Source: Deltaproteobacteria bacterium (GTDB taxonomy: Bacteria; Desulfobacterota; Binatia; HRBIN30; JACQVA1). Taken from it: a stretch of DNA of 64,000 nucleotides. Positions 1 to 14,223 of the stretch are shown here, one piece after another; the stretch's first letter is position 1, and the number at the start of each line of letters is the position of its first letter. The notes beneath the pieces are model-generated. The model searched no databases. It was not told the DNA's origin and was given only the letters and a program-made list of their open reading frames with translations. Location of the stretch: the NCBI GenBank assembly GCA_016178705.1, contig JACOST010000009.1, positions 1 to 64,000 on the forward strand. Reading direction: 5' to 3'. The position numbers and the translations under genes are program-made.

Positions 1-45
1 GATGAACTTGTCCTGCTTCAGGTTGTACGGTTTGTACCGCGCCAT
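1..45 (-). CDS. IS1182-type transposase, N-terminal fragment (continues beyond window)
   Basis: Reading leftward from the ATG at 43-45 gives 15 residues, MARYKPYNLKQDKFI, against MARYKPYNLKQDKMI in the intact transposase at 30791-32356, so one substitution in 15. The rest lies outside the window and it is unknown whether the gene is intact. Confidence 0.85.
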   Translation of the reverse strand, partial: MARYKPYNLKQDKFI

Positions 46-140
46 CCGCCCCGCCCCATCCCCTCAGCCGCCTCCGCATCGAGACGCTGCTCGGTAACAC
101 TGATTCTACAGGACGTGCGGAGTTTTTCTACAGCCTCAAC
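1..140 (-). mobile_element. Terminal fragment of an IS1182-type insertion sequence, cut by window edge
   Basis: Bases 1-137 match the right end of the complete IS at 30654-32448 almost base for base, including the transposase start region and the terminal inverted repeat, which here reads GTTTTTCTACAGCCTC against GTTTTTCTACAAGCTC in the full copy. Only the 5' end of the element lies inside the window; the rest runs off the left edge. It has the same orientation as the full copy. The bases just outside the end are AAC, as at the complete copy. Confidence 0.9.
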
Positions 141-484
141 GTTTCCCGGTAAAAGACCTCGGACTTCGCGAGATCCTTCACACGGATGGCTACTTCGTAA
201 AGACCGCGAATCGGCAACATGTGATCCTACCCTTCCTCCGGATTATGAATTCCGATCAAGTTGCGTTGATGTCGAGGCCGTCGAACACCAAAGCTCACCT
301 GCCGGGGCCGGTTTCGAAGCCCGTGCCACGTGGAGCGCCTTGTTCGGTCCGCCCCAGTTTCCTCGTCATGCTCACGCACTTCGTGTTTGCGGCAACCCGA
401 CGCGGCAATCTTCGTCGGACAATCGCGGAGCAGATCGGTGCTCCCCTAGTTTGGAGAACCGACCCATTTGCGCATCTCGAAACG
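141..484. other. Intergenic stretch without a recognisable gene
   Basis: About 340 bases lie between the IS end and the HNH gene. A plus-strand frame from about 143 stays open for roughly 110 codons and part of its composition looks protein-like, but it has no convincing start or ribosome site and resembles no family I know. It may be the tail of a gene truncated by the IS. No terminator or repeat was seen. Confidence 0.4.
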
Positions 485-1060
485 CTAAGATGAACTTGCT
501 TCACCCCCGGGCACGGGACCACCCATTGCTTGGCGGAGTCGCGTCCGATCGCCTTGCTTCCACGCCTCAATCAACTGGCCACCCTTGTCGCTGACATTCA
601 CCGTATACGTGACGATCTGCCAATTGTTGTTCGATTTCTGATCGACCGACGCCAGCCCGGCTGCGATCAATCTTCCGAAGTGAAGCAGCCCATCGCCGGA
701 AACTACCAGGAAGTCCTTCTTGCAGGATTCGAGAAAGAGCAGCCGGTCAATCGCTTCGACATCGAATGCTCGCGTAATCGCAACCAACATCGCCTTATAC
801 ACGTAAATCGACTCCTGCGTTATCGTGCCGCGGTGGTACAGGGCATGGTCAGTGGGACACAGTGCGATGAGATTAGACGGATCGTCGTTTCCCCCCGCTG
901 ACACCTCCCAGATGTGGTGCATGTCCAGCGCGAGGATGTTGCGGCAGGTGGGAACGGCGCACCGGTACCCTGACTCGGTTAGCACAATCAACCGAGTCTT
1001 GAGCGGCAGATTGTCCCGCTCGCGGGGCCTGGACTTGGACTTGGTGGTCTTCTTGACCAT
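485..1060 (-). CDS. HNH endonuclease-domain protein, last gene of the winged-helix operon
   Basis: 191 residues. The HNH core spans about residues 30-80: Cys34 and Cys39 pair with Cys68 and His72 as a zinc ribbon, and Asp46-x-His48-His49, Asn63 and His72 form the nuclease motif. This is the usual signature of a metal-dependent DNA nuclease. The N-terminus is basic (KKTTKSKSRPRER), suitable for nucleic-acid contact. Residues 81-191 have no recognised domain. It starts 27 bases after the stop of the preceding small gene on the same strand, so it is probably the distal gene of that operon. The nuclease family assignment is firm; its target and role are unknown. Confidence 0.85.
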   Translation of the reverse strand: MVKKTTKSKSRPRERDNLPLKTRLIVLTESGYRCAVPTCRNILALDMHHIWEVSAGGNDDPSNLIALCPTDHALYHRGTITQESIYVYKAMLVAITRAFDVEAIDRLLFLESCKKDFLVVSGDGLLHFGRLIAAGLASVDQKSNNNWQIVTYTVNVSDKGGQLIEAWKQGDRTRLRQAMGGPVPGGEASSS

Positions 1061-1087
1061 GGCTGCTGGCTCAGCGTTTCGGAGGGA

Positions 1088-1486
1088 TCACTTGCCGTCG
1101 AGGAGAATCGTCTTGATTATTGATTTCGGCAGTCGTCGAAAGAGATTGCTCCATTCAAACAAGATTGTTCCATCCTCCTCAATCTTCTGACGCAATAGGT
1201 CAGCCTCACGCAACGGCTTGAGGTGGTAGTCAAGAGCCGGCCCACTATTGAAGTTGAAGTGCGCCTGGAGATGCGACCGAGTTCGGGGCGTCTCGCACTC
1301 CCTCATGATCTTTTTCGCGTCTTTCGTCTTCAGATGCGCCTCAACATACTTCTTCACTTCGGGCGCATTTGAGATGGCTTCGATCGTCTCAATCGCGTTC
1401 AGGCGGTCTTTGATCGCCACCAACTCGTCCTGTAGCGATTGGGAAGAGACCTCTACGCTGTCCTTCTTGGATCGTCTATCACTCAC
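1088..1486 (-). CDS. Small winged-helix-like protein (fourth of a tandem set)
   Basis: 132 residues. The GTG start at 1486 overlaps the stop of the upstream gene (GTGA) and is preceded by a strong GGGAGG ribosome site, so translational coupling is likely. The N-terminal 50 residues are charged and helical, possibly a coiled coil. The C-terminal part (helix of KKIMRECETP, then a helix, then EADLLRQKI and EDGTILFEW) looks like a winged helix with a terminal beta hairpin. It is the most divergent of the four small proteins. No named family is recognised; a DNA-binding role is inferred from the predicted fold only. Confidence 0.65.
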   Translation of the reverse strand: MSDRRSKKDSVEVSSQSLQDELVAIKDRLNAIETIEAISNAPEVKKYVEAHLKTKDAKKIMRECETPRTRSHLQAHFNFNSGPALDYHLKPLREADLLRQKIEEDGTILFEWSNLFRRLPKSIIKTILLDGK

Positions 1487-1821
1487 CCCTTGCCTCCCGC
1501 CTTCGGATCGCCTTCGGGAATCAGGCCGAAGTCGTTCAGATCGAAGAGTCGAACGCGTCTTTTTTCGGCGTTCGCCTCCATCAGTCCCATAGCTACGCAG
1601 CGAGCCGTGAGCGCCACGACGGCGTTTGGACTCATCTTGCACGCGGTACGGACTTGCTCAACCGACACGGTGCCGTCAAACATCTGGTAGGCAGCTCGTG
1701 ACTTCACATCAGGCAACGCTTCTTCGAGCATCGCCTGAACTGGTCGGTACGCTGCCACGCGTATCCAGTTGCGAATGTCCGTCAGAACGGCGAGGAGCTC
1801 ATCGTCACCTTGGTTTTGCAT
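1483..1821 (-). CDS. Small winged-helix-like protein (third of a tandem set)
   Basis: 112 residues from an ATG at 1821 that lies inside the 3' end of the upstream gene, a 17-base overlap. It has the same layout as the two upstream proteins: an N-terminal helix of about 45 residues, then AYQMFDGTVSVEQVRTA, a recognition-like helix, and a final wing ending in RVRLFDLNDFGL. The motif MFDGT aligns with LMDGSR in the neighbours. I infer a distant paralogue with a MarR-like helix-turn-helix. The function is unknown. The heavy overlap with both neighbours argues for one transcript. Confidence 0.65.
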   Translation of the reverse strand: MQNQGDDELLAVLTDIRNWIRVAAYRPVQAMLEEALPDVKSRAAYQMFDGTVSVEQVRTACKMSPNAVVALTARCVAMGLMEANAEKRRVRLFDLNDFGLIPEGDPKAGGKG

Positions 1822-2149
1822 TGGCGTTGAAGAAGTTCGAGGGAATGGAAATTGCCAGCTTCGGCTCCTTCTTTCCGTCCGCAAGCAGCCCAGCGCTTTC
1901 CAGTTTCCCGACCAGGGTGCTCAAATCGCCCTGGTTCACAGACGTCTGCCCGACAATCTGCTTTTGCGTGCGGCTCCCGTCCATCAGGAACACGGACTGC
2001 TGCTTCTTGGAACTGGAGCCCACGATCTTCCGCAACTCGTCACGGAGCTTGGCATCGCGCTGAGCGATGGCGGGTTCGGCCAGAAGCTCAAGCAGCTTCC
2101 GCATGTGACGTACTTCTTCGAGTAGGAGTCGAGCGTGTTCGTCATTCAT
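1805..2149 (-). CDS. Small winged-helix-like protein B, paralogue of neighbour A
   Basis: 114 residues. The start chosen is the ATG at 2149, overlapping the upstream stop by 8 bases. An ATG 18 bases further upstream is possible. It aligns over nearly its full length with the next upstream protein; by eye about half the residues are identical, with shared blocks AEPA-x-AQRD, LMDGSR-x-Q, QG-x-LS-x-LV and a C-terminal PSNFF. The pattern of helix, helix-turn-helix and wing suggests a MarR-like winged helix. No membrane segment or enzyme motif is present. The specific family is not recognised. Confidence 0.7.
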   Translation of the reverse strand: MNDEHARLLLEEVRHMRKLLELLAEPAIAQRDAKLRDELRKIVGSSSKKQQSVFLMDGSRTQKQIVGQTSVNQGDLSTLVGKLESAGLLADGKKEPKLAISIPSNFFNANAKPR

Positions 2150-2471
2150 CTGCGTCGTCCCGATCAAAAAAGTTGGAGGGAACCTTCACCACGAGCTTGG
2201 GGTGCTTCTCGTCGGCGGAAATGAGTTGCGCGGTCGCGAGGGCCTTCACGAGTCTGCTGAGACCTCCCTGGTCTATCCCTGACTCCTTCACGATCGCAGA
2301 TTGAGCGCGCGAGCCATCCATCAGCCGCACCGCCCTGGCCTTCTTAGCACTTCGGCCAACAACAGTACGCAAGGACGACCTCAGTTTCACGTCGCGTTGC
2401 GCGAGCGCGGGCTCGGCCATCACCTGCAGCAGGTCGCGAATCTCGCTTAGCAACTCAATATCTCTGGACAT
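2142..2471 (-). CDS. Small winged-helix-like protein A, first gene of the tandem operon
   Basis: 109 residues, tandem paralogue of protein B. The conserved core is AEPALAQRDVKLR, then RLMDGSRAQ, then IDQGGLSRLVKAL (a helix-turn-helix-like segment), then KLVVKVPSNFF. The gene leads a chain of five genes with overlaps of 8, 17 and 4 bases and a final 27-base gap, a strong sign of a single functional unit. The caspase-like gene ends 166 bases upstream on the same strand, so one transcript including it is possible but not shown. Confidence 0.7.
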   Translation of the reverse strand: MSRDIELLSEIRDLLQVMAEPALAQRDVKLRSSLRTVVGRSAKKARAVRLMDGSRAQSAIVKESGIDQGGLSRLVKALATAQLISADEKHPKLVVKVPSNFFDRDDADE

Positions 2472-2579
2472 CCCTAGGCCACCCTCTCAACATTAGTATG
2501 AGACAAACAGAATTTGCCAGTTTAGGCAGACGGATTCAAAGGAATGCTCGCCGCCGCCGAACGTCGTGCGCTTGGGCCG

Positions 2580-2597
2580 CGCGCGTCTCAACGCGCG
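2580..2597. other. GC hairpin between the caspase-like gene and the winged-helix operon
   Basis: A 7-bp perfect stem (CGCGCGT/ACGCGCG) with a CTCA loop lies about 40 bases past the caspase-like stop. There is no T-tract, so it is at best a weak or factor-assisted terminator. Confidence 0.3.
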
Positions 2598-2637
2598 TCG
2601 GTCTCCAAGCGCTGGTTAGCCCATGCTACCGTGCACT

Positions 2638-3990
2638 TCATCGCCCAACCAAAGTCAATGTGAACGAACTGTCTCCCCACCTCATTGGGTGCTGAGTATC
2701 CTCAGTCAGCTCTCTAACTCTGACTTGGATGAAGTGGACTAGCTCATCGACTGACACCGTCCCGTCTCCGTCGATGTCCGCCGCGCCCAATAGGCCATCA
2801 ATCAGAGCGCGTGCAAAGGCACTCCCGCCCCAGCGAGCGGATTCGAAGGCCAACTGGTCTCGTCCCGTAGCGGTCAGTAGTACGAAACCTTGTCTTTCGG
2901 CAATGACCTGTGCATCTACTCCTCCCGGGCTTATCCCTCTGTGGGAAATATCCCCCAGCGCCCCTGCGTAGCAGGCATCGGCTACAAGTAGAATTTGTCG
3001 AGCATTTAGTCGGCGGATTCGATCCGCAAAGACATGCATATCGATGGAGGTCGTCGGTATCGACTCGGGATCAGAGTCCGACGCGAGAAAGTAGGCGGTG
3101 TTCGATAGCGAAACACCGCTGGCGCTGAGAAACACCCACACCTGGTCGTCGACAGACACCTCTCGTTCAAGCTCTGCCAGTTCGTCGAGGATCGCGCTGC
3201 GGGTGGCATCCGCTAGAAACCGAACAGACGCGTTTTGGTCGCGTCCAATCGCAGCTATCTCGCGCGCTGATGATACTGAGGAATTCAAGTGGGGAAAGGA
3301 GACGTAGCGATCGATTCCAATTGACAGGACGATCTTGTGCAGGGCCTGCCCGTTGGATGGTCGCGGAAGTGGACGTGCAACGGCGGTCGTTGAAATTGGA
3401 CTGTTCGGCTTAGGCGGCGCCTGAACCAACTCTACGAGCGCAGGCTGCACGCTAGAAAGGTCCGGGAAGTTGGCAATGCTGAGATAGGCAATTCCAGTTC
3501 GCTTGTTGGAAATTCGCAGATGAACGAAACTTGGCGGGATGAAGATCCCCCACAGCACCGTTTCGGTTTTCGTGTCACCTAGGATTGTGTCGGCATCGGA
3601 TGGCGTTGCTACCGTTTGTTGCATCGCGGCAGCAACAGCTCCGGGCCGGGATACCTTCGAAACATCGTAAAGAGTCTCAAGCAAATGGTCCTGAACATGA
3701 TTGCCATCATCTCCCTTGAATTTGGCAACGAGGATCTGACAGTCTTGGCCGCCCCGTAGACGGAGCAACCAAAATTGTCCCCCGTAGTAGACAGTGTCGG
3801 CGGCTACGACCGCTACTACAACAAACCAGAACTGACGAGCACGCAGGGCCGGGCCATAGGACTTCGAATCGCCCAGCTCGCGGATCAGCCAAGCACTCCC
3901 AGCTATGACGGTGGCACCAATGAGAATAGGGAGGGGCAGGCGTGTGAGGATGTCGTCGATGGCCTTCATTCCCGGTTTCTTTTGCTGCAT
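2638..3990 (-). CDS. Membrane-anchored caspase-like (peptidase C14) protein with altered catalytic His
   Basis: About 450 residues from the ATG at 3990; an ATG at 3969 is an alternative. Two hydrophobic segments near the N-terminus (around LPILIGATVIAG and FWFVVVAVVAAD) should anchor it. The C-terminal half is a caspase fold: KIVLSIGIDRY opens it, LLVADACYAG carries the Cys340 position (codon 2971-2973), and AADIDGDGTVSVDEL matches the end region common in bacterial caspases. Where the family has Ser-Gly-His-Gly this protein has Ser-Ala-Ser-Gly, with Ser encoded at 3118-3120 in place of the catalytic His. It may therefore be a pseudo-protease or use another residue. Its place beside the winged-helix/HNH operon suggests a stress or defence role, which is inference. 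Confidence 0.8.
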   Translation of the reverse strand: MQQKKPGMKAIDDILTRLPLPILIGATVIAGSAWLIRELGDSKSYGPALRARQFWFVVVAVVAADTVYYGGQFWLLRLRGGQDCQILVAKFKGDDGNHVQDHLLETLYDVSKVSRPGAVAAAMQQTVATPSDADTILGDTKTETVLWGIFIPPSFVHLRISNKRTGIAYLSIANFPDLSSVQPALVELVQAPPKPNSPISTTAVARPLPRPSNGQALHKIVLSIGIDRYVSFPHLNSSVSSAREIAAIGRDQNASVRFLADATRSAILDELAELEREVSVDDQVWVFLSASGVSLSNTAYFLASDSDPESIPTTSIDMHVFADRIRRLNARQILLVADACYAGALGDISHRGISPGGVDAQVIAERQGFVLLTATGRDQLAFESARWGGSAFARALIDGLLGAADIDGDGTVSVDELVHFIQVRVRELTEDTQHPMRWGDSSFTLTLVGR

Positions 3991-4289
3991 GTAGCCCGGA
4001 GCGACAAGAAGGCTCGCCCTGATCCGGCTAACTACAATTGGGCTGCCGAACGTTGTCGGCAAGGGCCGAAAGACTGCACGGCCTAACATGCCGGCTCATG
4101 AGCGTCGTGATAGCCTAGAACTCCGCGTGGGTACAACGGCTTGAATGACGAGTGCTGAGATGAGGTCACGCTGTGTTAGTCCGCGCGACTTGGCAGCCTA
4201 ACGTACCAATCAGGGCGATCGGCGACACCGGCTCACGTCGCGCCGCGCTCTGAGGTTGTTCGAGCTAATCGCGCAGTGTCGGCGTGGCA

Positions 4290-6947
4290 CTACGGCGCTG
4301 GCGCGAATGCGGCGAGTTGCAGCACCCAGGTGCCGCTGGTGAGCGGCGCGGTGGCGGTGTAGTTACCGGCCGATGCCGCGATGGTGTCTTCCACGAGGTC
4401 GCCGTCGGGGGTGGTGATGACGCGGCTGGTATACCCCGCTCCCGGCGCACTGAACGTGGCGCCGGTCATGCCGGCCACGAACAGCAGCGCGTTGGACGCC
4501 GCGGCGAGCGGGCCGGTGCTGGCGCTGCTCCCGACTCCGGTGGCCGATATGCCGGCCACGAACGGTGCGCTCTGGCGCAAGCCCGCGTATTCGGTGATGC
4601 GCAGATCGACGAAGACCGCGGCTTGGTCGAAGTGCACTGTCACCTGATTGCTGCCTGGCGATGCCGCTTGGATGTTGGCCGCGTAGTAGATCGCCTGGCT
4701 CATGCCGTTGCCACGGAACGTCGCCAGCGCTGGCTGGTACACGTTGCCGGCGCTGTCGCTCACCGACGTGATGCTCGCGGTCGTGTCGTTCCAACCGATG
4801 GCCAGAATGTTGGTGTCGCCCACCGTCTGCGCGCTCGCGTAGGTCGTGCTCACCACACTCTGCGGCGATTGCGGTGCGGCGTAGTTCTGCTGCACGAAGG
4901 TCGGACCGGGGCCCACCGTCGTCACGTTGAGCGCCGCCGATGGCGCCGACACGTTGTTGGCGTAATCGAAGGCGACCACCGTATAGGCGTACGCCGTCAG
5001 CGCCGTGAGCCCCGTGTCGGTCGCCGTGGTCGCCGCCATGGTGCGGATCAACACGCCGTCACGATAGAGCTGATAGCCCGCCACCGCCACGTTGTCGGTG
5101 GACGCCGTCCACGTGATCGTGATCTGCGTGTCAGTCACCCCCGAGGCCGACACGCCGCTGGGCACCGACGGCGCTTGGTTGTCTGGTGGCACCGCTGTGG
5201 CTTCGAGCACCAGCACCCAATCGCCATCGCCATCGCTGTTGGCGCCCGGCGGTGTGAAGGGCCGCGCGCCACTGTTGGCCAATGGCGAGCCGGCAATCGA
5301 ACTGAACGTCCCGTTGCTCGGGTCGTACCACGACGCGTAGGCCGGGGCGCCGAGCGTCGCCATGTTCACCGTGATGGTGCGACTCGTCGGCAGATACGCC
5401 ATCACCAACGCACCGTCGGGCGTGCGCGCCGCCGTCAGGTAGTCATTGGTGCCGAGCGCGCCACTGTCGGCAAACGTCCCGTAGCCCGCGGTCACCACGG
5501 TGTGGGACTGATCGGGAATCAGGTTGAACCACTGCCGCGACTCGAACAGGAATTTGACGTAGCGCATCTGCAACGAGCCCGGCGTATCGAGGTTGCTCTG
5601 CCAGCCGCTGCTGAACGGCCAGGTGTAGCGGTTGCCGTAGAGCTGGCCGGCGGCGCCGCTGAGCAGACTCCAGTACGCCTGCCGGCGCAGGATCTCGGGC
5701 GTGCCCTCGTCGGCGGCGTTGTGTTCGAACTCGTAGTTCGCTTCCACCAAGAACGTCGGCAGCGCGTTGGCGCGGTTGTAGTCGGCCAGCACCTGCGCGT
5801 AGGTCGGATAGTAGGTGTACGACGCGTTGAGCTGAATCAGCGGCGCCCAACTCGCGTCATCGAGCGAGCCGCTGACGAGATAGTCCAACTCCACGGTGTG
5901 AATGTGGCGGTCGTCGGTGTCGTGGATGCCGCGCGCCACCGCCTGCACCACCGCGTCGTCGCCGGGCGACTGCCAGCTTTGGAAATCGTTGCCGCTCATC
6001 CAGATGATGTTGTCGACGCTGCGGTAACGCGTGCCGAGGTAGCGCCCGTAGGTGCGCGCCTTGGTAACGCCGTTGGCATTCAGGACACTGAGGTAGCTGC
6101 CGGTCTCGGCGGGATCGAGCAGCACGGTAAGGCCATGCTGCGCCGCCAGCGTGAGCATGTGATCGACGCGGGTGAAGAAGGCGTCGTTGGGCGTGGCGAG
6201 ATCGTTGGGCGTGGTAAACGGCACGATACCGTCGTAGGTGCTGCCGTCGGCGCGCCCTCCCGTGTAGGTGGCGCACAGCAGGTTGACCCAGACCACATTG
6301 AACCCCGCGGCTTGGCGGTCGGCGAAAAACGCGTCGGCCTCGGCCTCGGAGAGATTGACCGTCAACGCCTGCGGCGAATCCCCGGTGAGCAACACCGGCA
6401 CGTTGTTCTGATCCACCAAGTACCGCCCGTTCGGGCTCACCTTCAACGGATAGGCGGTGTTCGTGTTCGGCGGTGGGTTGCCCGGCGTGCGTGTCGCTGT
6501 TGGCGTACGTGTTGGCGTTGACGTGCGCGTCCCCGTCCGCGTCGCGGTCGGCCGCAGCGTGGCGGTCGGCGTCCGCGTGCGAGTGCGCGTACGAGTAGGA
6601 GTCGCCGTGCGGGTCGCGGTACTCGTCGCCGTTGGCGTCGGCGTACGAGTGGGACGCCGCGTATGCGTCGCCGTGGGCGTCGGAGTGGACGTGCGGGTCA
6701 CCGTTGGCGTCCGCGTGCGAGTCACCGTTCGCGTCGGCGTCCTCGTCGTGGTCCGTGTTCGCGTCCGCGTTGCTGTCGAGCGCCGAGTAGGTGTGCGCGT
6801 TGGCGTGGGAGCTGCGAGGGCACCCACCGCGTGCAGGCAAATGAGAAGAAGCGCAGCCCACAACGCGCGGGTAACGATGACCTGCCAGACGCGAGCACTG
6901 CGGGAACCGCGGGCATTGCGAGCATGAATTGATGAGCGCGCATTCAT
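4290..6947 (-). CDS. Secreted multidomain glycoside hydrolase-like protein (DUF4038/GH140-like, FN3)
   Basis: 885 residues. In order: a signal peptide ending near Ala-Leu-Ala-Ala at 46; a Thr/Pro/Arg-rich linker, residues 47-155; a TIM-barrel domain of the DUF4038 (apiosidase/GH140-like) type from about 165 to 460, starting with LKVSPNGRYLVDQNNVPVLL; a beta domain of the putative collagen-binding type often paired with DUF4038 (about 465-590); one fibronectin type III domain (about 600-690); and an unassigned C-terminal beta-rich domain of about 190 residues. Asp in WMSGND and Glu in FLVEANYEFE are plausible catalytic acids, by analogy. Likely role: extracellular polysaccharide breakdown; a possible substrate of the T2SS nearby. 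Substrate unknown. Confidence 0.75.
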   Translation of the reverse strand: MNARSSIHARNARGSRSARVWQVIVTRALWAALLLICLHAVGALAAPTPTRTPTRRSTATRTRTRTTTRTPTRTVTRTRTPTVTRTSTPTPTATHTRRPTRTPTPTATSTATRTATPTRTRTRTRTPTATLRPTATRTGTRTSTPTRTPTATRTPGNPPPNTNTAYPLKVSPNGRYLVDQNNVPVLLTGDSPQALTVNLSEAEADAFFADRQAAGFNVVWVNLLCATYTGGRADGSTYDGIVPFTTPNDLATPNDAFFTRVDHMLTLAAQHGLTVLLDPAETGSYLSVLNANGVTKARTYGRYLGTRYRSVDNIIWMSGNDFQSWQSPGDDAVVQAVARGIHDTDDRHIHTVELDYLVSGSLDDASWAPLIQLNASYTYYPTYAQVLADYNRANALPTFLVEANYEFEHNAADEGTPEILRRQAYWSLLSGAAGQLYGNRYTWPFSSGWQSNLDTPGSLQMRYVKFLFESRQWFNLIPDQSHTVVTAGYGTFADSGALGTNDYLTAARTPDGALVMAYLPTSRTITVNMATLGAPAYASWYDPSNGTFSSIAGSPLANSGARPFTPPGANSDGDGDWVLVLEATAVPPDNQAPSVPSGVSASGVTDTQITITWTASTDNVAVAGYQLYRDGVLIRTMAATTATDTGLTALTAYAYTVVAFDYANNVSAPSAALNVTTVGPGPTFVQQNYAAPQSPQSVVSTTYASAQTVGDTNILAIGWNDTTASITSVSDSAGNVYQPALATFRGNGMSQAIYYAANIQAASPGSNQVTVHFDQAAVFVDLRITEYAGLRQSAPFVAGISATGVGSSASTGPLAAASNALLFVAGMTGATFSAPGAGYTSRVITTPDGDLVEDTIAASAGNYTATAPLTSGTWVLQLAAFAPAP
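6483..6809 (-). repeat. Low-complexity tract coding a Thr-Pro-Arg linker
   Basis: About 109 codons encode almost only Thr, Pro, Arg, Ala, Ser and Val in imperfect two- and four-residue units such as TRTP and TPTA. It separates the signal peptide from the catalytic domain. Such linkers are usually extended and often O-glycosylated in secreted enzymes, but the high Arg content is unusual. Confidence 0.9.
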
Positions 6948-7144
6948 TGTGCAAACCTAGGCTACCCCGACATCGCAGAGTGTCAACGGGATATTTTCAC
7001 TGAGCGACGACCACGCACGCCTTGATGTTTTGACATGCGCCTCCTACAGCGAGTATCGGCTGCGTGAGCTGGCACAAGGCGCGCGCCGCAACGCGCCAGC
7101 AATCACGCGGTCGGCTCGTCAGACGCAGAGCCGTGGAGGAGCGC

Positions 7145-7936
7145 ATGACGGATTGTCCGGTGAAAGTCGGCAGCATGCTGTTTACGATGGTGGATCCGCA
7201 CCGGGGCTACGAGGTCGCCTACAATCGCTGGTACGAGCGCGACCATTTTTACGCCGGATGCCTTGTGGGTCCTTGGCTGTTCGCGGGACGGCGATGGGTG
7301 GCGCCGCGCATCCTCAAAGATCTGCGCTTCCCCGAGCCGAGTTCGTTTGCGGCGCCGTCAGTGGCGGCGGGCTCGTACGTTGCGACCTATTGGATACATG
7401 CCGACCACCACGATGAGCACCACGAGTGGGCGATCAATCAGGTGCGCTGGCTCTACCGCAACGGCCGTGGCTTTCCGCAACGCACGCACGTTCACACGCT
7501 GCTCTACACCTACGATTGGACCCACTATCGCGACAGCGACCCGGTCCCGGTCGAGCTGTCGCTCGATCATCACTTCCCGGGGATGGTTTCAATCGCAATC
7601 GAACGCGAGCCCGGCGTCAAGCAGGACGATCTCGACCGCTGGCTGCGAGAGTCGTACCTGCCGCACATGCTGGCCGATTCTCGGATCGCGTCGTGTTCCA
7701 CCTGGTCGCCGATTCCACAGGCCAACACCCCACCGATGGACATTCCGCGCGTGGAGCGCACCGACCGGCTCGACCTGCAGCTGTACTTCCTCGACAGCGA
7801 GCCACAGCAGACATGGAGCCGATTCCAGAAATTCGGGAAGGCCCTGGCGGCAACCGGGCTTGGTCAGGTCGTGTTTGCTTCCCCCTGGCTGCCCACCGTT
7901 GTCGGTACGGATACCTACACTGATCAGCTCTGGTAG
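7145..7936 (+). CDS. Conserved hypothetical protein, possible dimeric alpha-beta barrel
   Basis: 263 residues from the ATG at 7145, chosen because GGAGGAG lies just upstream. It contains YNRWYERDHFYAG near the N-terminus, which resembles the start of EthD/dimeric alpha-beta-barrel proteins, and a second similar unit around DDLDRWLRESYLPHML, so it may be a two-copy ferredoxin-like fold. No catalytic motif is evident. It stands alone on its strand, divergent from the glycosidase. Function not recognised. Confidence 0.65.
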   Translation: MTDCPVKVGSMLFTMVDPHRGYEVAYNRWYERDHFYAGCLVGPWLFAGRRWVAPRILKDLRFPEPSSFAAPSVAAGSYVATYWIHADHHDEHHEWAINQVRWLYRNGRGFPQRTHVHTLLYTYDWTHYRDSDPVPVELSLDHHFPGMVSIAIEREPGVKQDDLDRWLRESYLPHMLADSRIASCSTWSPIPQANTPPMDIPRVERTDRLDLQLYFLDSEPQQTWSRFQKFGKALAATGLGQVVFASPWLPTVVGTDTYTDQLW

Positions 7937-8169
7937 ATTGGCGAGACGGTCGTGTCGGCGCAAGCAACGAGACCGCGTCCGCATTGCCGACCCGGCGCGG
8001 TAGCGATCGCTTGCTTCCCGGCACCTTCGAAACGTTGTCGCCGAAGCAAGGCGCGTGCTACGCTGCGAAGCATCGTGACATCCCGCCGTGGAAGCTGAAG
8101 GCCATAGCGCGTCGCACCCGGTAGCGCGCGGCTGACCACGAATTGCTCTTCGGGGAGGTCCTCATTGGA

Positions 8170-8568
8170 ATGATTCACCACATCGGCGTCTTCGCTTCAG
8201 ACCTTGGCGCGAGTCGGCGATTCTTCACGCAGGCTCTGGCACCGCTGGGTGTGGTTGCCCAGTACGAAACGGATCAGGTTGCGGAATTCTGGCGGCTCGA
8301 CACCGATGCACCGTCGTTGTCCCTCGGGCGGACAACGGGAGAAGTGACTCGTGGCCTGCACCTGGCCTTCGAGGCCGCTGATCGCAATACCGTTGACGCG
8401 TTCTTCGCTGCAGCGATTGCCGCCGGAGGCCGAGAACGGCATGCCCCGAGGCATTGGCCTCACTACCGAGCGTACTGCGCCTTCGTCAGCGACCCAGACG
8501 GCAACAACATCGAGGCCGTCCACAAGGAGACCTCACGGCGAAGGCCTGGCGCACGAGCAGCGGAGTGA
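8170..8568 (+). CDS. VOC-family (glyoxalase/dioxygenase-like) protein
   Basis: 132 residues. It begins MIHHIGVFASDL with the first metal-ligand His and ends with SDPDGNNIEAVH, where Glu is the usual last metal ligand; the spacing fits a single vicinal-oxygen-chelate unit acting as a dimer. The start at 8170 is chosen over 8143 because the domain begins there and GGGGAGG lies upstream. It overlaps the next gene by GTGA and is probably co-translated with it. The substrate cannot be told from sequence. Confidence 0.8.
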   Translation: MIHHIGVFASDLGASRRFFTQALAPLGVVAQYETDQVAEFWRLDTDAPSLSLGRTTGEVTRGLHLAFEAADRNTVDAFFAAAIAAGGRERHAPRHWPHYRAYCAFVSDPDGNNIEAVHKETSRRRPGARAAE

Positions 8569-9242
8569 ACGAGCTTTCGAAAAAATCCCTAACGGGGTTG
8601 ATCAAACTACAGGTTGGCCTTGCTCTGTTGCTCTTCCTGCCGGCTTGGTCGCTGCACTTTTGGCAGGCGTGGATCTACTGGATGCTCTTCGGTATCTCCG
8701 TCCTGATGATCACGCTGTATTTTCTGAAGCATGACCCCGGTCTGGTTAATCGTCGACTCGATGCCGGTCCGGGGGCCGAGCATGAGAAGATCCAGAAGAT
8801 CATTCAAGCCATCGCCAGTGTCCTGGTGTGCGCCCTCATCATTGTTCCAGGGTTCGATCATCGGTTTCATTGGTCAGCGGTGCCGACAGCCATCGTTCTG
8901 TCTGCCGACGTGATGGTCGCGCTCGGGCTTCTGATGGTCTTCTTCGTGTTCAGAGCGAACAGTTACGCGGCGAGTGTCGTGAAAGTCGAGGCGAGCCAGC
9001 CGGTGATAGAGACGGGGCCATATCGGCTCGTTCGCCACCCGATGTATGCGGGCGGCCTGCTGGCGCTCTTGGCCACGCCGTTGGCGTTGGGATCGCCGTG
9101 GGGACTGCTCGTTGGCATCGCGCTCTGCGGCGTCATCGTCGCTCGGCTTCTGGATGAAGAGCGGTTTCTGTCCGCACACCTCCCGGGCTACGACGCGTAT
9201 TGCCGGAAGGTTCGGTATCGTCTGGTGCCGATGGTCTGGTAA
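8565..9242 (+). CDS. Isoprenylcysteine carboxyl methyltransferase-like membrane protein
   Basis: 225 residues from a GTG at 8565 that overlaps the VOC stop (GTGA). Four to five membrane segments lead to the family signature: ETGPYRLVRHPMYAGGLL followed by a helix and LLDEERFLSAHLPGYDAYCRKVRYRLVP. This is the SAM-binding region of the ICMT/phospholipid methyltransferase superfamily. Bacterial members methylate lipids or small molecules; the exact substrate is unknown. Confidence 0.8.
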   Translation: MNELSKKSLTGLIKLQVGLALLLFLPAWSLHFWQAWIYWMLFGISVLMITLYFLKHDPGLVNRRLDAGPGAEHEKIQKIIQAIASVLVCALIIVPGFDHRFHWSAVPTAIVLSADVMVALGLLMVFFVFRANSYAASVVKVEASQPVIETGPYRLVRHPMYAGGLLALLATPLALGSPWGLLVGIALCGVIVARLLDEERFLSAHLPGYDAYCRKVRYRLVPMVW

Positions 9243-9266
9243 ACTTCCGAGCGAGCGGAGGAGATC

Positions 9267-9683
9267 ATGCTGACAGGAAGATGCCTCTGCGGCGATGTGC
9301 GGTTCGAACTGCACGGGAAGCTCGGCCCGCTGGCGTATTGCCACTGTTCGATGTGTCAGCGCGCCAGTGGCTCCGCCTTCGCCGCCAACGCGGCGATCCG
9401 ATCGCAATACCTGAAGTGGGTATCCGGACGAGAATCAATCCGCGAGTACGAATCCTCGCCGGGCAAGTTCCGCGCGTTCTGTTCGAGGTGCGGCTCGCCG
9501 ATCTTCAGCCGGCGTGTCGACGAACCAGACTCGTTCCGGATTCGCTTGGGCATGCTCGACGGTGACCCCGAGCGCAGACCACTGGCTCACTTCTGGGTGT
9601 CATCCAAAGCGCCGTGGTTCGAGATTCGCGACGAGCTTCCACAATACCAAGAAGACTCCGTCACCAACCCAGGGCCGCAATAG
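9267..9683 (+). CDS. GFA/CENP-V family zinc protein
   Basis: 138 residues. The zinc ligands are evident: CLCGDVRF at the start, CHCSMC in the centre and CSRCGSP later, the complete GFA fold pattern. Members include glutathione-dependent formaldehyde-activating enzyme, but most are uncharacterised carbon-sulfur lyase-like proteins. It starts 24 bases after the methyltransferase with a GGAGG ribosome site, so it is probably in the same transcript. Confidence 0.85.
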   Translation: MLTGRCLCGDVRFELHGKLGPLAYCHCSMCQRASGSAFAANAAIRSQYLKWVSGRESIREYESSPGKFRAFCSRCGSPIFSRRVDEPDSFRIRLGMLDGDPERRPLAHFWVSSKAPWFEIRDELPQYQEDSVTNPGPQ

Positions 9684-9709
9684 GGCTCCAGCATTGCGAG
9701 GCAACGCTC

Positions 9710-9979
9710 ATGTGTAGAAACATCAAAACGCTCTTCAACTTCGAACCGCCGGTTACGGACGAAGAGATCCGCGCGGCTTCCTTGCAGTTCGTGCGAAAGG
9801 TGAGCGGCTTCAACAAGCCATCGAAGGCAAACGAAGCGGCCTTCCTCACCGCGGTCGATGCGGTCGCCAAAGTCTCGGGTCGCCTACTCACGGCTCTCGA
9901 AACCAACGCCGCCCCAAGGAACCGCGCAGAAGAAGCGGCCAAAGCACACCTGCGCGCCGCACAGAGATTCTCGACGTGA
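9710..9979 (+). CDS. DUF2277 family protein
   Basis: 89 residues. It begins MCRNIKTLFNFEPPVTDEEI and continues with QFVRKVSGFNKPSKANEAAF, the typical start of the small all-helical DUF2277 family of unknown function. The start at 9710 matches the family start and has GAGG upstream. It ends 25 bases before the convergent end of the T2SS operon. Confidence 0.85.
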   Translation: MCRNIKTLFNFEPPVTDEEIRAASLQFVRKVSGFNKPSKANEAAFLTAVDAVAKVSGRLLTALETNAAPRNRAEEAAKAHLRAAQRFST

Positions 9980-10003
9980 GTACCGAAGACGCGGCTCGCG
10001 CGA

Positions 10004-10945
10004 CTAGCGGATTTGCGGCGCGCCGAGAGTGCCGCTGATCGTGATGGGTGCGTCGGGACGCGCGCCGGGGGCCCGCGGGATCAGCAGGAGCGCGCCTTTG
10101 ATCGCGTCGGGCGTCGCCGCGCTGGGTTCGAGCGTCACGCGCAGATTCAATTGACTGCTGGCCGCCGGATCGCGCAACACGATGCTGCCGCTGAGCGACC
10201 CGTTCAGTTGATCGCCGACGAGGCGGAACTCTTGGATTTCGAGTCGATCGCCCTTCACGCTCAGCTTGCCCTTGGCCTGTGCGAACTGGAGATCAGGAAT
10301 CTTGAAGCCTTTGATCTTGCCGCCGAGCAAACCGGGACGATTGACGAGAATCTCACCGCTCACTTGCGTCGCGCGTCGATCCGCGCTCGGAACCTGCACG
10401 GTGAAATTTCCCGATACTTGGCCGGTGATCTGGCCTTCGTCGATCTGCGACATCAATGGGCGATAGCGACCGAGTTCCAACTTGGACAGTTCGACCTGCC
10501 CCGAGCCGCCGGCGCCCGCCATCGTCCATTGACCCGTTACGGTACCGCCATAGAGTTCGCCCTGCCACGACACGCCGGTAAATTGGCCGCGCATCAGGCC
10601 CTTCAGCTCCGGCAGCACGTCGAGCGTCGAGCACTCCAACCACGACACGTCCTCGCCAGCGACGGTCTGCGACACGCGAACGCCGCGCAGCTCGTAGCCG
10701 TGATGCCAGGCGAAGCGCGCCGACTTGAAGTCGACCTGCAGTGGGCTCAGATCGACGTTGCTCATCACCCGCCGCACCACGATGTCGTGTGGAAAATTGA
10801 CGATCAGCCCGACGAGAAACACGACGAGGGTGAAGCCGGCATAGAGCAGCACGGTGCGGCTCACCAGCCCGCCCAGCCACTCGAACGAAATCCGCGGCCG
10901 CGCCGACAGGCGCGGCAGGCGTAACCGAATCCGCGGTAGACGCAT
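10004..10945 (-). CDS. gspN: T2SS protein GspN (delta-type)
   Basis: 313 residues with a basic cytoplasmic N-terminus, one membrane segment (VLLYAGFTLVVFLVGLIV) and a large periplasmic beta-rich domain. Repeated AsmA-like strands such as GQITGQVSGNF and NGSLSGSIVL are seen. This matches the GspN type that closes T2SS operons in delta-lineage bacteria, an inner-membrane accessory subunit. It begins 3 bases after gspM and is the last gene of the operon. Confidence 0.85.
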   Translation of the reverse strand: MRLPRIRLRLPRLSARPRISFEWLGGLVSRTVLLYAGFTLVVFLVGLIVNFPHDIVVRRVMSNVDLSPLQVDFKSARFAWHHGYELRGVRVSQTVAGEDVSWLECSTLDVLPELKGLMRGQFTGVSWQGELYGGTVTGQWTMAGAGGSGQVELSKLELGRYRPLMSQIDEGQITGQVSGNFTVQVPSADRRATQVSGEILVNRPGLLGGKIKGFKIPDLQFAQAKGKLSVKGDRLEIQEFRLVGDQLNGSLSGSIVLRDPAASSQLNLRVTLEPSAATPDAIKGALLLIPRAPGARPDAPITISGTLGAPQIR

Positions 10946-10948
10946 CGG

Positions 10949-11566
10949 CTACGCTCCCGGTGCCGGCGCCGCAGCGGGCGCGGCTCCGGGCGCCGCTGCT
11001 GGCGCCGCAGTGCGGGGCTTGAGCAGCGACACGGTCGCGACGATGTCGAAGCTGCGCGGATCGTTGTAACGCTTCTTCACTTGCAATCGCGAGACATGCA
11101 GCGGGGGGTCACCCTTCTCGATCTTGTAGAGCATGGCCACCAACTGATCGAGGGCCACGCCGGTCAGCTTAATCTCCACCGACTGCTCCTGGTACTCGTC
11201 GGTGAGGTTCTTGTCGGTCGGGTTCATCGACTGGATTTTCTCACGCGCCACCGTCGCCGCCACCGCGCTCTGCAGGTTGGCGAAGAGCGAGAAATTCGGA
11301 TCGGTGCGCACGACAACCGATTGATTGGCCTCGATCTGGCGCAGCAAATCGAGATAGTGCGCGCGCTGCGCTTGCATCTCGTTGAGATCCTTCTCGCGCG
11401 CGACGATGCGCTTCTCCAAGCGCTCGCGGCCGGCGACCAGTGGATCCCAGACGAAACTGTAGAGCGAGATCAGCAGCACCGAGCCGACCGCGGCACCGAG
11501 CAGCAGCCGCTCGCGCGGCGACAGCCGCTGATAGAAATTGAACACCTCGCGCGGATCGAACGCCAT
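10949..11566 (-). CDS. gspM: T2SS inner-membrane protein GspM
   Basis: 205 residues: short cytoplasmic tail with FYQRLSPRERLLL, a membrane segment, a coiled-coil stretch (about 50-90) and a ferredoxin-like periplasmic domain with VEIKLTGVALDQLVAMLYKIE. The C-terminus is Ala/Pro-rich. GspM pairs with GspL to hold the assembly ATPase at the membrane. Its start directly abuts the gspL stop. Confidence 0.9.
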   Translation of the reverse strand: MAFDPREVFNFYQRLSPRERLLLGAAVGSVLLISLYSFVWDPLVAGRERLEKRIVAREKDLNEMQAQRAHYLDLLRQIEANQSVVVRTDPNFSLFANLQSAVAATVAREKIQSMNPTDKNLTDEYQEQSVEIKLTGVALDQLVAMLYKIEKGDPPLHVSRLQVKKRYNDPRSFDIVATVSLLKPRTAAPAAAPGAAPAAAPAPGA

Positions 11567-13093
11567 CTACTCTCCCAGGTGCGTGTCTTTGGTCATGATC
11601 AGAATCAAGCGAAAGCTCACGTCCTTGCCGTCAGCGGACGCTTTCACATCTTTCACCTGGACATCCTTGAAGTACGGCACCGCCACCAATTGCTGCTTGA
11701 TGGTGTCGACCGTTTCGAAAGAGTCGGTGCGGCCGCGGATGCGCACGGCCTCCGGGTCGTACGCGTACTCGTCGATATCGAGCTTCGCCTTGTCGGTGAG
11801 AGCGGCACTGATGGCGCGCGCGATGTCGATGGCGGCGGCGCCCGACAACGAGACGATGCCGCCCAACAGTTGCAGCTTCTGCTCCGCCTTGTCGACCTCG
11901 CTCTTGAACTGCGCGATCTCGTTGACTGGCCGCTCGTCGGGCAGCGTGTTGACGAACACTTTGCGGATCTGCCCGTCAATCGCGGTCAAGCGGCTGAGTT
12001 GGAACTGATACGCGGCAAACAAATCGGCGATCGTCATCACCAGCAGTACGCCCACCAAGATCGCGACGCGGCCGAACGCGCGCCGCACTTCCTGTTGCCC
12101 ACGATGATAGGCGAACTCGTCGCGGCGGAAGTTGAGCCCGAGCGTGTTGGCGGGCGCCACTTCTCGCAAGGCGACACCCAGCGGCGCGGCGCAGGTCGGC
12201 AGCAGCGCTTGATCCGTCGGCGTCATCATGCGCAGCGGAATGCGATCGAGGCGACGCAGCTCGAAGCCGAGCTGGCGTTCCAACACCGGCGCGGAATGAT
12301 CGAGCCACGCCGGTGAACCGGCGACGTAGCACGGGAGCCGATCGTCCAGCGGCGCGCCGTTGATCACCATCAGGCTCCAGCGCAACTCGACCGCGAGCGC
12401 GCGGGCGGCGCTGTCGTCGGGCGGAGCATCCGTCAACACCGCGCCCTCGGCGAGCGCATGGCCATTGGCGGCGCCGTTGGTCGCCGGCGCGCCGTGTCCA
12501 ACCGCCAATGTGCGCAAGCCCACCAGCTGCTGATTGCGGTAGAGCGCGACATGAACGCTGTTCGCGTTGCACTCGACGAATGCGAAGGTCGCCGGCAGGT
12601 CGGCGCTCAACACGCGCAGCACGTTGAGCCCGGACATCGAAGCAAGGTCGACGACCTTGGGATCGATGCCGGCGCTGCGCAGCATCGCCAGGTGCGCTTC
12701 CAGATCGGTCTTCTGCACCATCGCCGCCAACACTGTCGTGCCCGAGCGATCGCGGTGCAGCACGGAGTAATCGACGATCACTTCGTCGAGACCGAATGGC
12801 ACCTGGGTTTCGAGTTCAAACGGGATCGTCTGATTGAGCCGCTTGCGATCACGGAACGGCAGGAAGAACACGCGATGCGAGACCAGCCCGCCCGGCAGGG
12901 TCGACACCACGGTCTCGCCCGCGAGTTGGTGGCGATCGAGGAAGCGCCGCACTTGCTCGCCAGTGGCGCCGCCGTCGGGGGTGAGCGCTTCGTGGTACAG
13001 GCCGGCGATGCGATAGTCGCGAAAGCTGGTTTCCAGCACCGCGGCCTTGACCTCGGTCTCCTCGACATCCAGAGCTAGAATTCGTTGCGGCAT
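11567..13093 (-). CDS. gspL: T2SS inner-membrane platform protein GspL
   Basis: 508 residues. The cytoplasmic part (about 1-340) is actin-like, related to PilM, starting ILALDVEETEVKAAVLE. It is followed by one membrane segment (VAILVGVLLVMTIADLFAAY), a coiled coil and a periplasmic ferredoxin-like domain (PilN-like) ending in FRLILIMTKD. It links GspE to the pseudopilus machinery. It starts 23 bases after gspK. Confidence 0.92.
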   Translation of the reverse strand: MPQRILALDVEETEVKAAVLETSFRDYRIAGLYHEALTPDGGATGEQVRRFLDRHQLAGETVVSTLPGGLVSHRVFFLPFRDRKRLNQTIPFELETQVPFGLDEVIVDYSVLHRDRSGTTVLAAMVQKTDLEAHLAMLRSAGIDPKVVDLASMSGLNVLRVLSADLPATFAFVECNANSVHVALYRNQQLVGLRTLAVGHGAPATNGAANGHALAEGAVLTDAPPDDSAARALAVELRWSLMVINGAPLDDRLPCYVAGSPAWLDHSAPVLERQLGFELRRLDRIPLRMMTPTDQALLPTCAAPLGVALREVAPANTLGLNFRRDEFAYHRGQQEVRRAFGRVAILVGVLLVMTIADLFAAYQFQLSRLTAIDGQIRKVFVNTLPDERPVNEIAQFKSEVDKAEQKLQLLGGIVSLSGAAAIDIARAISAALTDKAKLDIDEYAYDPEAVRIRGRTDSFETVDTIKQQLVAVPYFKDVQVKDVKASADGKDVSFRLILIMTKDTHLGE

Positions 13094-13116
13094 GGCCGCT
13101 CAGTCCTTGTCCTTCC

Positions 13117-14223
13117 TCATCGGTCAAGCGGCGCTGCGCCCCGCTCCTCCTCCGTTGCGTGCGCAAACAACTCCGCGCCCCCCCTCTTCTGCCAATCAAG
13201 CGGGGTCAAAGTCCAGCGCGGCGTACCCGGCGGAGCATTCGGCGGCACGTTGGGACGTGGCCGGCGCTGCACCAACGCGACCACGGTTTGCCCGACGCCA
13301 CCGTGGCGCTGCCCGGTGGGGTCCGCGCTCACCATCGCGCTGGCGAAGACGCGGAAGTACGAACTGCGTGTGCCGAACAGCTTGATCATGATTGGTTCGT
13401 TGGGGACGTTCTTGAGCAAGGTCTTCAGCTCCGCCTCCTCGATCGGTTTCTCCGCCCCTTGGCGGTCCACGATATCTTGGATCGCTTGCTGGTCGTTGAG
13501 CACCGCAGTCAGCACTTCGACGGGCGCCGTGTTGATGTTGATCTTGCCGCCATCGTTGCCGGCACCAACGACCGGAAGCGCGGTCAGCCACTTAGAGAGC
13601 TTGGTCAGCTTGGCGGACGGAATGCCGAAGGTCGCACCAAAGTCTTCCAGTGAACGGAAGTCTTCGACGGGCGGGGGTGGTTGCTTGCTGCCCGGCACCG
13701 GGGCCGGAGACTTCCCCCAATAGTCGACCAGATCATCGACGATGCCGACCCGAACTTCTTGCGCTTCAAAAAGTCGGCGCAACGCGTCGCGCAAGAATGC
13801 TTCAGCCGTTAGGGGGGATGCGCCGGCGGCTGGAGTCTTTGACGCCGGTGGTGTGGCTGGGGGAGCGGCTCCCGGGATGACGCGCGGCCCCCGGGTGCGA
13901 TTGATGTTGATCTTGCCCGACTCGTCGATCACCTGCACCTTCAAGCGCTCGTCGGGATCGAGCGTGATGACGCCGGCGATGTCGGGATTGGCCCAGTCTT
14001 CGAAGTACCAATCGGCCTGCGGTTTGTCGGTGTCGCGCGCCAGCACCGCTTCGCCGAGATTGATGCCTGAGCGCGCCAGCATCGACGCCTGCATCGCGCT
14101 CAGCGAGTTGCGCACGAGCCGCTGGTCCACTCCGACCGAGAAGGTGAACTCCACCACTGTGATGGTCAGCAACGCCACCACCAGCATGGTGACGATCAGC
14201 GCGATGCCGCGTTCGCTTCTCAT
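13117..14223 (-). CDS. gspK: T2SS minor pseudopilin GspK
   Basis: 368 residues. The start at 14223 overlaps the gspJ stop by one base (TAATG). It has a prepilin-like N-terminus RSERGIALIVTMLVVALLT with Gly as the cleavage residue, then the large GspK insertion with a Pro-rich segment (PPATPPASKTPAAG) and the family motif GKININTAPVEVLTAVL (helix-hairpin-helix-like). GspK caps the pseudopilus tip together with GspI and GspJ. Confidence 0.92.
   Translation of the reverse strand: MRSERGIALIVTMLVVALLTITVVEFTFSVGVDQRLVRNSLSAMQASMLARSGINLGEAVLARDTDKPQADWYFEDWANPDIAGVITLDPDERLKVQVIDESGKININRTRGPRVIPGAAPPATPPASKTPAAGASPLTAEAFLRDALRRLFEAQEVRVGIVDDLVDYWGKSPAPVPGSKQPPPPVEDFRSLEDFGATFGIPSAKLTKLSKWLTALPVVGAGNDGGKININTAPVEVLTAVLNDQQAIQDIVDRQGAEKPIEEAELKTLLKNVPNEPIMIKLFGTRSSYFRVFASAMVSADPTGQRHGGVGQTVVALVQRRPRPNVPPNAPPGTPRWTLTPLDWQKRGGAELFAHATEEERGAAPLDR

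Follow-up and report, generated by a model that had tools for sequence, protein, structure and literature searches.

A unit of five genes, designated A to E, is encoded near one end of the window, which is the 64,000-nucleotide stretch of DNA analyzed here (contig JACOST010000009.1 of a Deltaproteobacteria bacterium). Comparisons of its proteins indicate that the unit moves horizontally between distant bacteria, and its best explanation, with a probability of about 0.45, is a multi-subunit, ATP-independent DNA endonuclease that would be a split counterpart of the single-chain, modification-dependent (type IV) restriction enzymes with a winged helix (wH) and an HNH domain. The parts are of known kinds; for the arrangement no match was found, and no published description of the unit was found among open-licence papers. 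The five genes are as follows.

Gene A, 2142..2471, minus strand: 109 aa, ATG start; small MarR-like protein of winged-helix type whose N-terminal segment looks helical
Gene B, 1805..2149, minus strand: 114 aa, ATG start; paralogue of A, as judged by sequence
Gene C, 1483..1821, minus strand: 112 aa, ATG start; predicted winged helix, with an ArsR/SmtB-type repressor as the best aligned chain
Gene D, 1088..1486, minus strand: 132 aa, GTG start; HTH_20-type helix-turn-helix, below cut-off
Gene E, 485..1060, minus strand: 191 aa; HNH nuclease by family match, with a C-terminal domain of its own

Genes A and B overlap by 8 bases, B and C by 17, and C and D by 4, and 27 bases separate D from E; these overlaps and the gap are as the first-pass annotation gave them, and all five ORFs are on the minus strand. 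A to E are real genes, because their homologues at the loci L013 and L014 keep the order and similar overlaps, and because, of the 27 gene comparisons, the 19 with a computable dS show dN/dS values no higher than about 0.16 (dS was saturated in the other 8; overlapping frames were handled together with the rest of the genes). The window starts at base 1 of its contig, and only 484 bases are therefore readable downstream of E. At about 128–220 on the minus strand of this part, a remnant of a glyoxalase/VOC-like frame was seen by eye, and it soon meets a stop. No RNA families were found in positions 1–8000 of the window.

Short A/B motifs were used to scan 84,980 species-level genomes for homologous loci. 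A motif was present in 143 stretches, and four were confirmed: the window and three further loci, L012, L013, and L014, the three being a lower bound since the scan needs exact motifs. L012 and L013 are titled as Planctomycetota and L014 as Gemmatimonadetes (Gemmatimonadota). L013 and L014 carry the complete A–E set in an order identical to that of the window. At L013 the overlaps measure 8, 17, and 4 bases, and D and E are 30 bases apart; at L014 the overlaps measure 11, 20, and 4 bases, and the D–E gap is 19 bases. L012 stops inside B, while a contig edge of the same genome (L025) holds the end of B, then C, D, and E. The first-pass annotation asked whether homologues ever occur together or with HNH genes, and they do: B, C, D, and E are present in all four genomes with A, the window's included, though the query was A/B alone. 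The similar overlaps across loci suggest subunits made in a fixed ratio.

The proteins of the window are 74–89% identical to those of the Planctomycetota genome G430 (four genes, B left out), 61–83% to those of the Planctomycetota genome G431, and 64–70% to those of the genome G432; B of L012, which runs into the contig end, was excluded from alignments and identity counts. RpoB of the window's genome is 51, 53, and 54% identical to that of G430, G431, and G432, respectively (1,058–1,126 aligned residues), and the higher identity of the A–E proteins points to horizontal movement of the unit. In addition, the copies in the window are nearer to those of G430 than the copies of G431 are (A 74 vs. 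65%, C 75 vs. 74%, D 82 vs. 73%, and E 89 vs. 84%), against an RpoB identity of 62% between G430 and G431, which shows horizontal transfer of the unit. In the comparisons with the window, dN is 0.08–0.32, and dS, computable in 12 of 14, is 0.69–2.28. Wherever dS is computable, the values indicate purifying selection on A–E.

A and B are 47–48% identical, and this similarity identifies them as paralogues. MarR_2 matches eight of nine A/B-type proteins (two of the nine come from the distant locus L024, described below), with a best E-value of 1.3e-5; the cut-off was given for the first A/B-type member only, which falls below it. HTH_20 matches all four D proteins and scores 26.5 bits at best, where the cut-off is 27. 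For C, no HTH family was matched. The AlphaFold2 model of C, built from three sequences, has a mean pLDDT of 82.5 (the highest of five models, the lowest having 53.6) and includes helices at residues 54–61 and 65–77 and strands at 81–83 and 89–91, that is, a helix-turn-helix followed by a beta wing. The best aligned chain was the repressor CzrA (1r1u; Z 8.8, rmsd 3.7, 86 residues), in a fold search where unrelated proteins often reach a best Z of 7–8, and the rows listed were mostly winged-helix regulators. Such a search is evidence of a common fold only and leaves room for families missing from its list. Foldseek with the same model returned nothing at or below an E-value of 0.001, and methyltransferase and MarR chains headed its list. 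On the model, C is predicted to be a winged helix. The first-pass annotation had named four winged-helix proteins; to the below-cut-off matches of A, B, and D, the model adds a prediction for C. By eye, SPNAVVAL is the recognition helix of C, a hydrophobic stretch with no basic residue; C may for that reason be a protein-protein part, so that not every subunit would touch DNA. Profile comparison gave no support to the grouping of A/B, C, and D into a single family (hhalign probabilities of 2.3, 0.1, and 0.1% with shallow alignments); a relationship is shown for A with B only.

E, described as an HNH nuclease from its pattern, passes Pfam PF01844 (HNH) with 32.3 bits against a cut-off of 21.4 (E-value 1.1e-7). 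His49, Asn63, and His72 as well as the cysteines at 34, 39, and 68 are invariant in all seven E-type proteins. Position 71 is Asp in the window copy only and Cys in the six others, where it is likely a zinc ligand. The solved chains nearest to the HNH part are McrA-type restriction enzymes, 5zmm (1.9e-4) and 6ghc (1.2e-3), which we take to be ScoMcrA and EcoKMcrA. Compared with these enzymes, E has no other matched domain, and its operon encodes small separate proteins. The C-terminal domain of E matches no wHTH family in any of the seven members, and the AlphaFold2 model of E is poor (mean pLDDT of 44). By eye, and as an impression only, this domain has the look of a winged helix with a "KG..L" stretch at its end.

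A profile of E matched 23 of 292 genomes at 1e-4, and the match reached past model position 100 only in the window's genome, G231, and G117. Stand-alone E-like genes were found in three places: L015, on a plasmid of Streptomyces nigrescens, L059, and L060. Their HNH proteins of about 170–185 aa are 29–33% identical to E over both the HNH and the C-terminal parts, and profiles of A/B, C, and D found nothing on the DNA fetched around them (the L060 contig has 3,662 bases). This type of nuclease thus need not always have such partners.

The fixed order with overlapping genes, the co-transfer, and the joint constraint suggest that the five proteins are subunits of one machine; complex formation, DNA reading, and a restriction role are what we infer for A–E. 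In this endonuclease, A, B, C, and D would be different winged-helix subunits that jointly read DNA or restrain E, A and B would probably pair through their similar N-terminal segments, and E would supply the HNH active site and cut DNA. Because no methyltransferase was seen to accompany the unit, host DNA would be spared by the reading of a mark or feature absent from the host, or by inhibition. A methyltransferase was identified at L014 only, within a type III pair, and none was noticed elsewhere in the ORF lists read and in a family search on some neighbours. Several observations count against the split endonuclease: the hydrophobic recognition helix of C, the stand-alone E-like genes, the Asp at position 71 of the window's E, the poor model of E, the profile comparison of A/B, C, and D, and defence-type neighbours that vary from locus to locus.

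Several known enzymes resemble this arrangement in part. According to PMC11037411, winged-helix domains within a single chain direct HNH or PD-(D/E)XK nucleases to methylated DNA, and stand-alone winged-helix nucleases are argued to be likely readers of modified DNA, toxicity being the consequence otherwise. That reasoning can be extended to A–E, for which inhibition by A–D would serve equally well. SruGXI and HhiV4I, from the same paper, combine a winged helix with HNH as A–E do, and a section heading of that paper speaks of rare methyltransferase neighbours. These two are one chain with the winged helix before HNH, whereas in A–E the HNH domain lies at residues 43–77 of E, first in the chain, and the four small winged-helix-type proteins are encoded by separate genes. 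As described in PMC10853773, several winged helices jointly read DNA in DndG, SspB, and the recognition domain of FokI. These triple-wHTH readers resemble the proposed A–E assembly in that several winged helices read for a nuclease, but they are tandem domains in one chain, whereas A–E are separate genes with no ATPase. The orphan HNH proteins of L015, L059, and L060 are E-like in both parts, with no A–D genes in the fetched flanks.

A distant locus suggests that the nuclease of such a unit can be exchanged. L024 is a 3,416-base contig in the genome G375 with six tandem genes at 35–2537, whose products are five small winged-helix-type proteins (104–120 aa with the starts used) and one protein of 273 aa. 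It entered the analysis through a weak A match (17.2 bits, E-value 0.0073), no better than those of frames judged unrelated (up to 21.3 bits), and was retained for its gene context. The C profile scores 33.6 bits with protein 4, against 10.8 bits for the best of 5,000 shuffles and 21.3 bits for the strongest hit beyond the unit among 298 genomes, and a good case can be made from these scores that protein 4 is a relative of C. The A/B profile scores 27.4 bits with protein 1 and 20.0 bits with protein 6 (best shuffle, 10.5). This A/B likeness is suggestive only, because shuffles miss a general winged-helix likeness and because protein 1 also matches the D profile (13.0 bits) and the C profile (11.9 bits); protein 1 passes HTH_29 (28.6 vs. 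28.1) as well. No clear counterpart of D was found in L024.

No family matches the 273-aa protein above cut-off, and among 297 genomes it found two other proteins at an E-value of 0.001. One of them is 24% identical (E-value 2e-8 in a single comparison), and the aligned stretch, recognized by eye, is one that we take to be PD-(D/E)XK-like, which makes the protein a putative nuclease. A match to KEOPS Pcc1 chains (4.9e-7) is probably due to chance. Searches for the 273-aa protein in plasmids and IMG/VR, and for the C-like protein in plasmids and phages, returned nothing. The contig may be foreign or a contaminant, because its GC content is 0.427 compared with 0.572 for the rpoB stretch of the same genome. 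Together with the window, L024 would outline a class of DNA-targeting systems in which the reader consists of separate small winged-helix proteins and the nuclease is exchangeable (HNH in A–E, PD-(D/E)XK-like in L024), amounting to a protein-only multi-subunit guide with paralogues assembled combinatorially. Such a class is improbable, slightly the more so as the likeness of two L024 proteins to A/B is not told apart from what winged helices share in general.

The main rival to the split endonuclease, unlikely in itself, is an HNH DNase toxin silenced by winged-helix repressors or inhibitors. A–D would autoregulate the operon or bind E, and stress or phage attack would free E. In its favour are the matches of A and B to MarR_2 and of D to HTH_20, the stand-alone E-like HNH genes, and, at L012, a HipA-type gene and a small HTH gene upstream of A on the other strand. 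Against it, the 200 bases upstream of A in the four loci held no shared word (10–16 bases, few mismatches) and no common palindrome. It would also be unusual for one small gene to have four different repressors, and subunits made in fixed proportion would account for the constant order and overlapping frames at least equally well. Promoter and terminator patterns were not above the level of shuffles.

Other neighbours are of defence type as well. Downstream of E at L014, the region 7358–13400 encodes a methyltransferase of type III (922 bits) along with a helicase-like restriction partner (31 bits), and type III restriction-modification genes adjoin the unit at this one of the four loci. A 401-aa protein from the same region matches a type II restriction family weakly. 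In the window, a caspase-like gene lies upstream of A on the same strand (2638–4089, minus strand; NCBIfam "caspase, EACC1-associated type", 63.8 bits, cut-off 140). Its protein has an EF-hand match below threshold and, by eye, a DACYAG cysteine motif, with FLSASG instead of a clear HG histidine motif, and is perhaps an inactive caspase relative. It was considered as a sixth member and rejected, having no counterpart in L012, L013, L014, L024, or L025 (best E-value 0.95). In the first-pass annotation the unit was suggested to be a regulated DNA-degrading one, for instance a defence module, and of this the analysis supports the conserved co-occurrence of the genes. Because the defence-type neighbours differ between loci, they lend a defence role weak support. 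With PADLOC-DB 2.0.0, partial or weak matches were obtained for A, D, and E and none for B and C, and no component of a known or candidate defence system was matched over most of its length. The first-pass annotation could match no known system, which holds for the libraries searched.

It is improbable that the unit is instead a module of a mobile element, in which HNH homing or nicking and accessory DNA-binding proteins would serve the element's own transfer. The clear horizontal transfer is consistent with such a module, as are the GC content of A–E (0.52–0.59 vs. 0.64 for the window beyond base 4100) and the resemblance of the HNH domain of E to IscB and phage HNH enzymes. At L013, 24-base inverted repeats (7313–7336 and 10419–10442, 92% complementary) lie outside the unit on both sides, but they are taken for chance because they are GC-rich, sit inside neighbouring reading frames, and have no counterpart in L014 or the window. 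In the three stretches searched, the unit is not bordered by direct repeats of at least 16 bases, and reading the ORF lists by eye revealed no integrase or transposase next to the complete units.

Searches of mobile DNA also speak against this module. Plasmids (72,556 records; queries A, C, and E), phages (50,697 records; queries A and E), and IMG/VR (alignments of A/B, C, D, and E) yielded no member of the unit, and carriage of the unit by phages or plasmids was rejected on these searches. The phage and plasmid searches gave only HNH relatives of E, in six plasmid and five phage records, one of which (L015) covers both parts of E. Among genomes, A matched 6 of 145 at 0.01 and 3 of 297 from the phylum, the window's genome being included both times; C matched 1 of 7, which was G431 itself, and 2 of 298, one of which was G432 itself; and C together with the L024 protein gave 6 matches in 317 genomes and 3 in 294. 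In many of the genomes searched, the scoring covered only some of the first-look candidates. Matches outside the known loci and G375 had E-values from 6.5e-4 to 0.0086. The weak matches of the two A searches and of the C search in 298 genomes were judged unrelated by eye on the three longest frames each.

A set of transcription or nucleoid regulators, with the HNH protein in a repair or non-nuclease role, is the least probable reading, since the presence of only small DNA-binding-type proteins and the change of the zinc site in the window copy of E are set against HNH residues invariant in every E-type protein and against the identity of E, which exceeds that of every other gene compared whichever of the three other genomes is set beside the window (B not compared with G430).

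If the small proteins of the split endonuclease are indeed its reader, the unit would represent a restriction-like enzyme in which recognition is split over four subunits, without an ATPase or a methyltransferase in the unit. This would raise the question of how several small readers set the specificity and how the host is spared.
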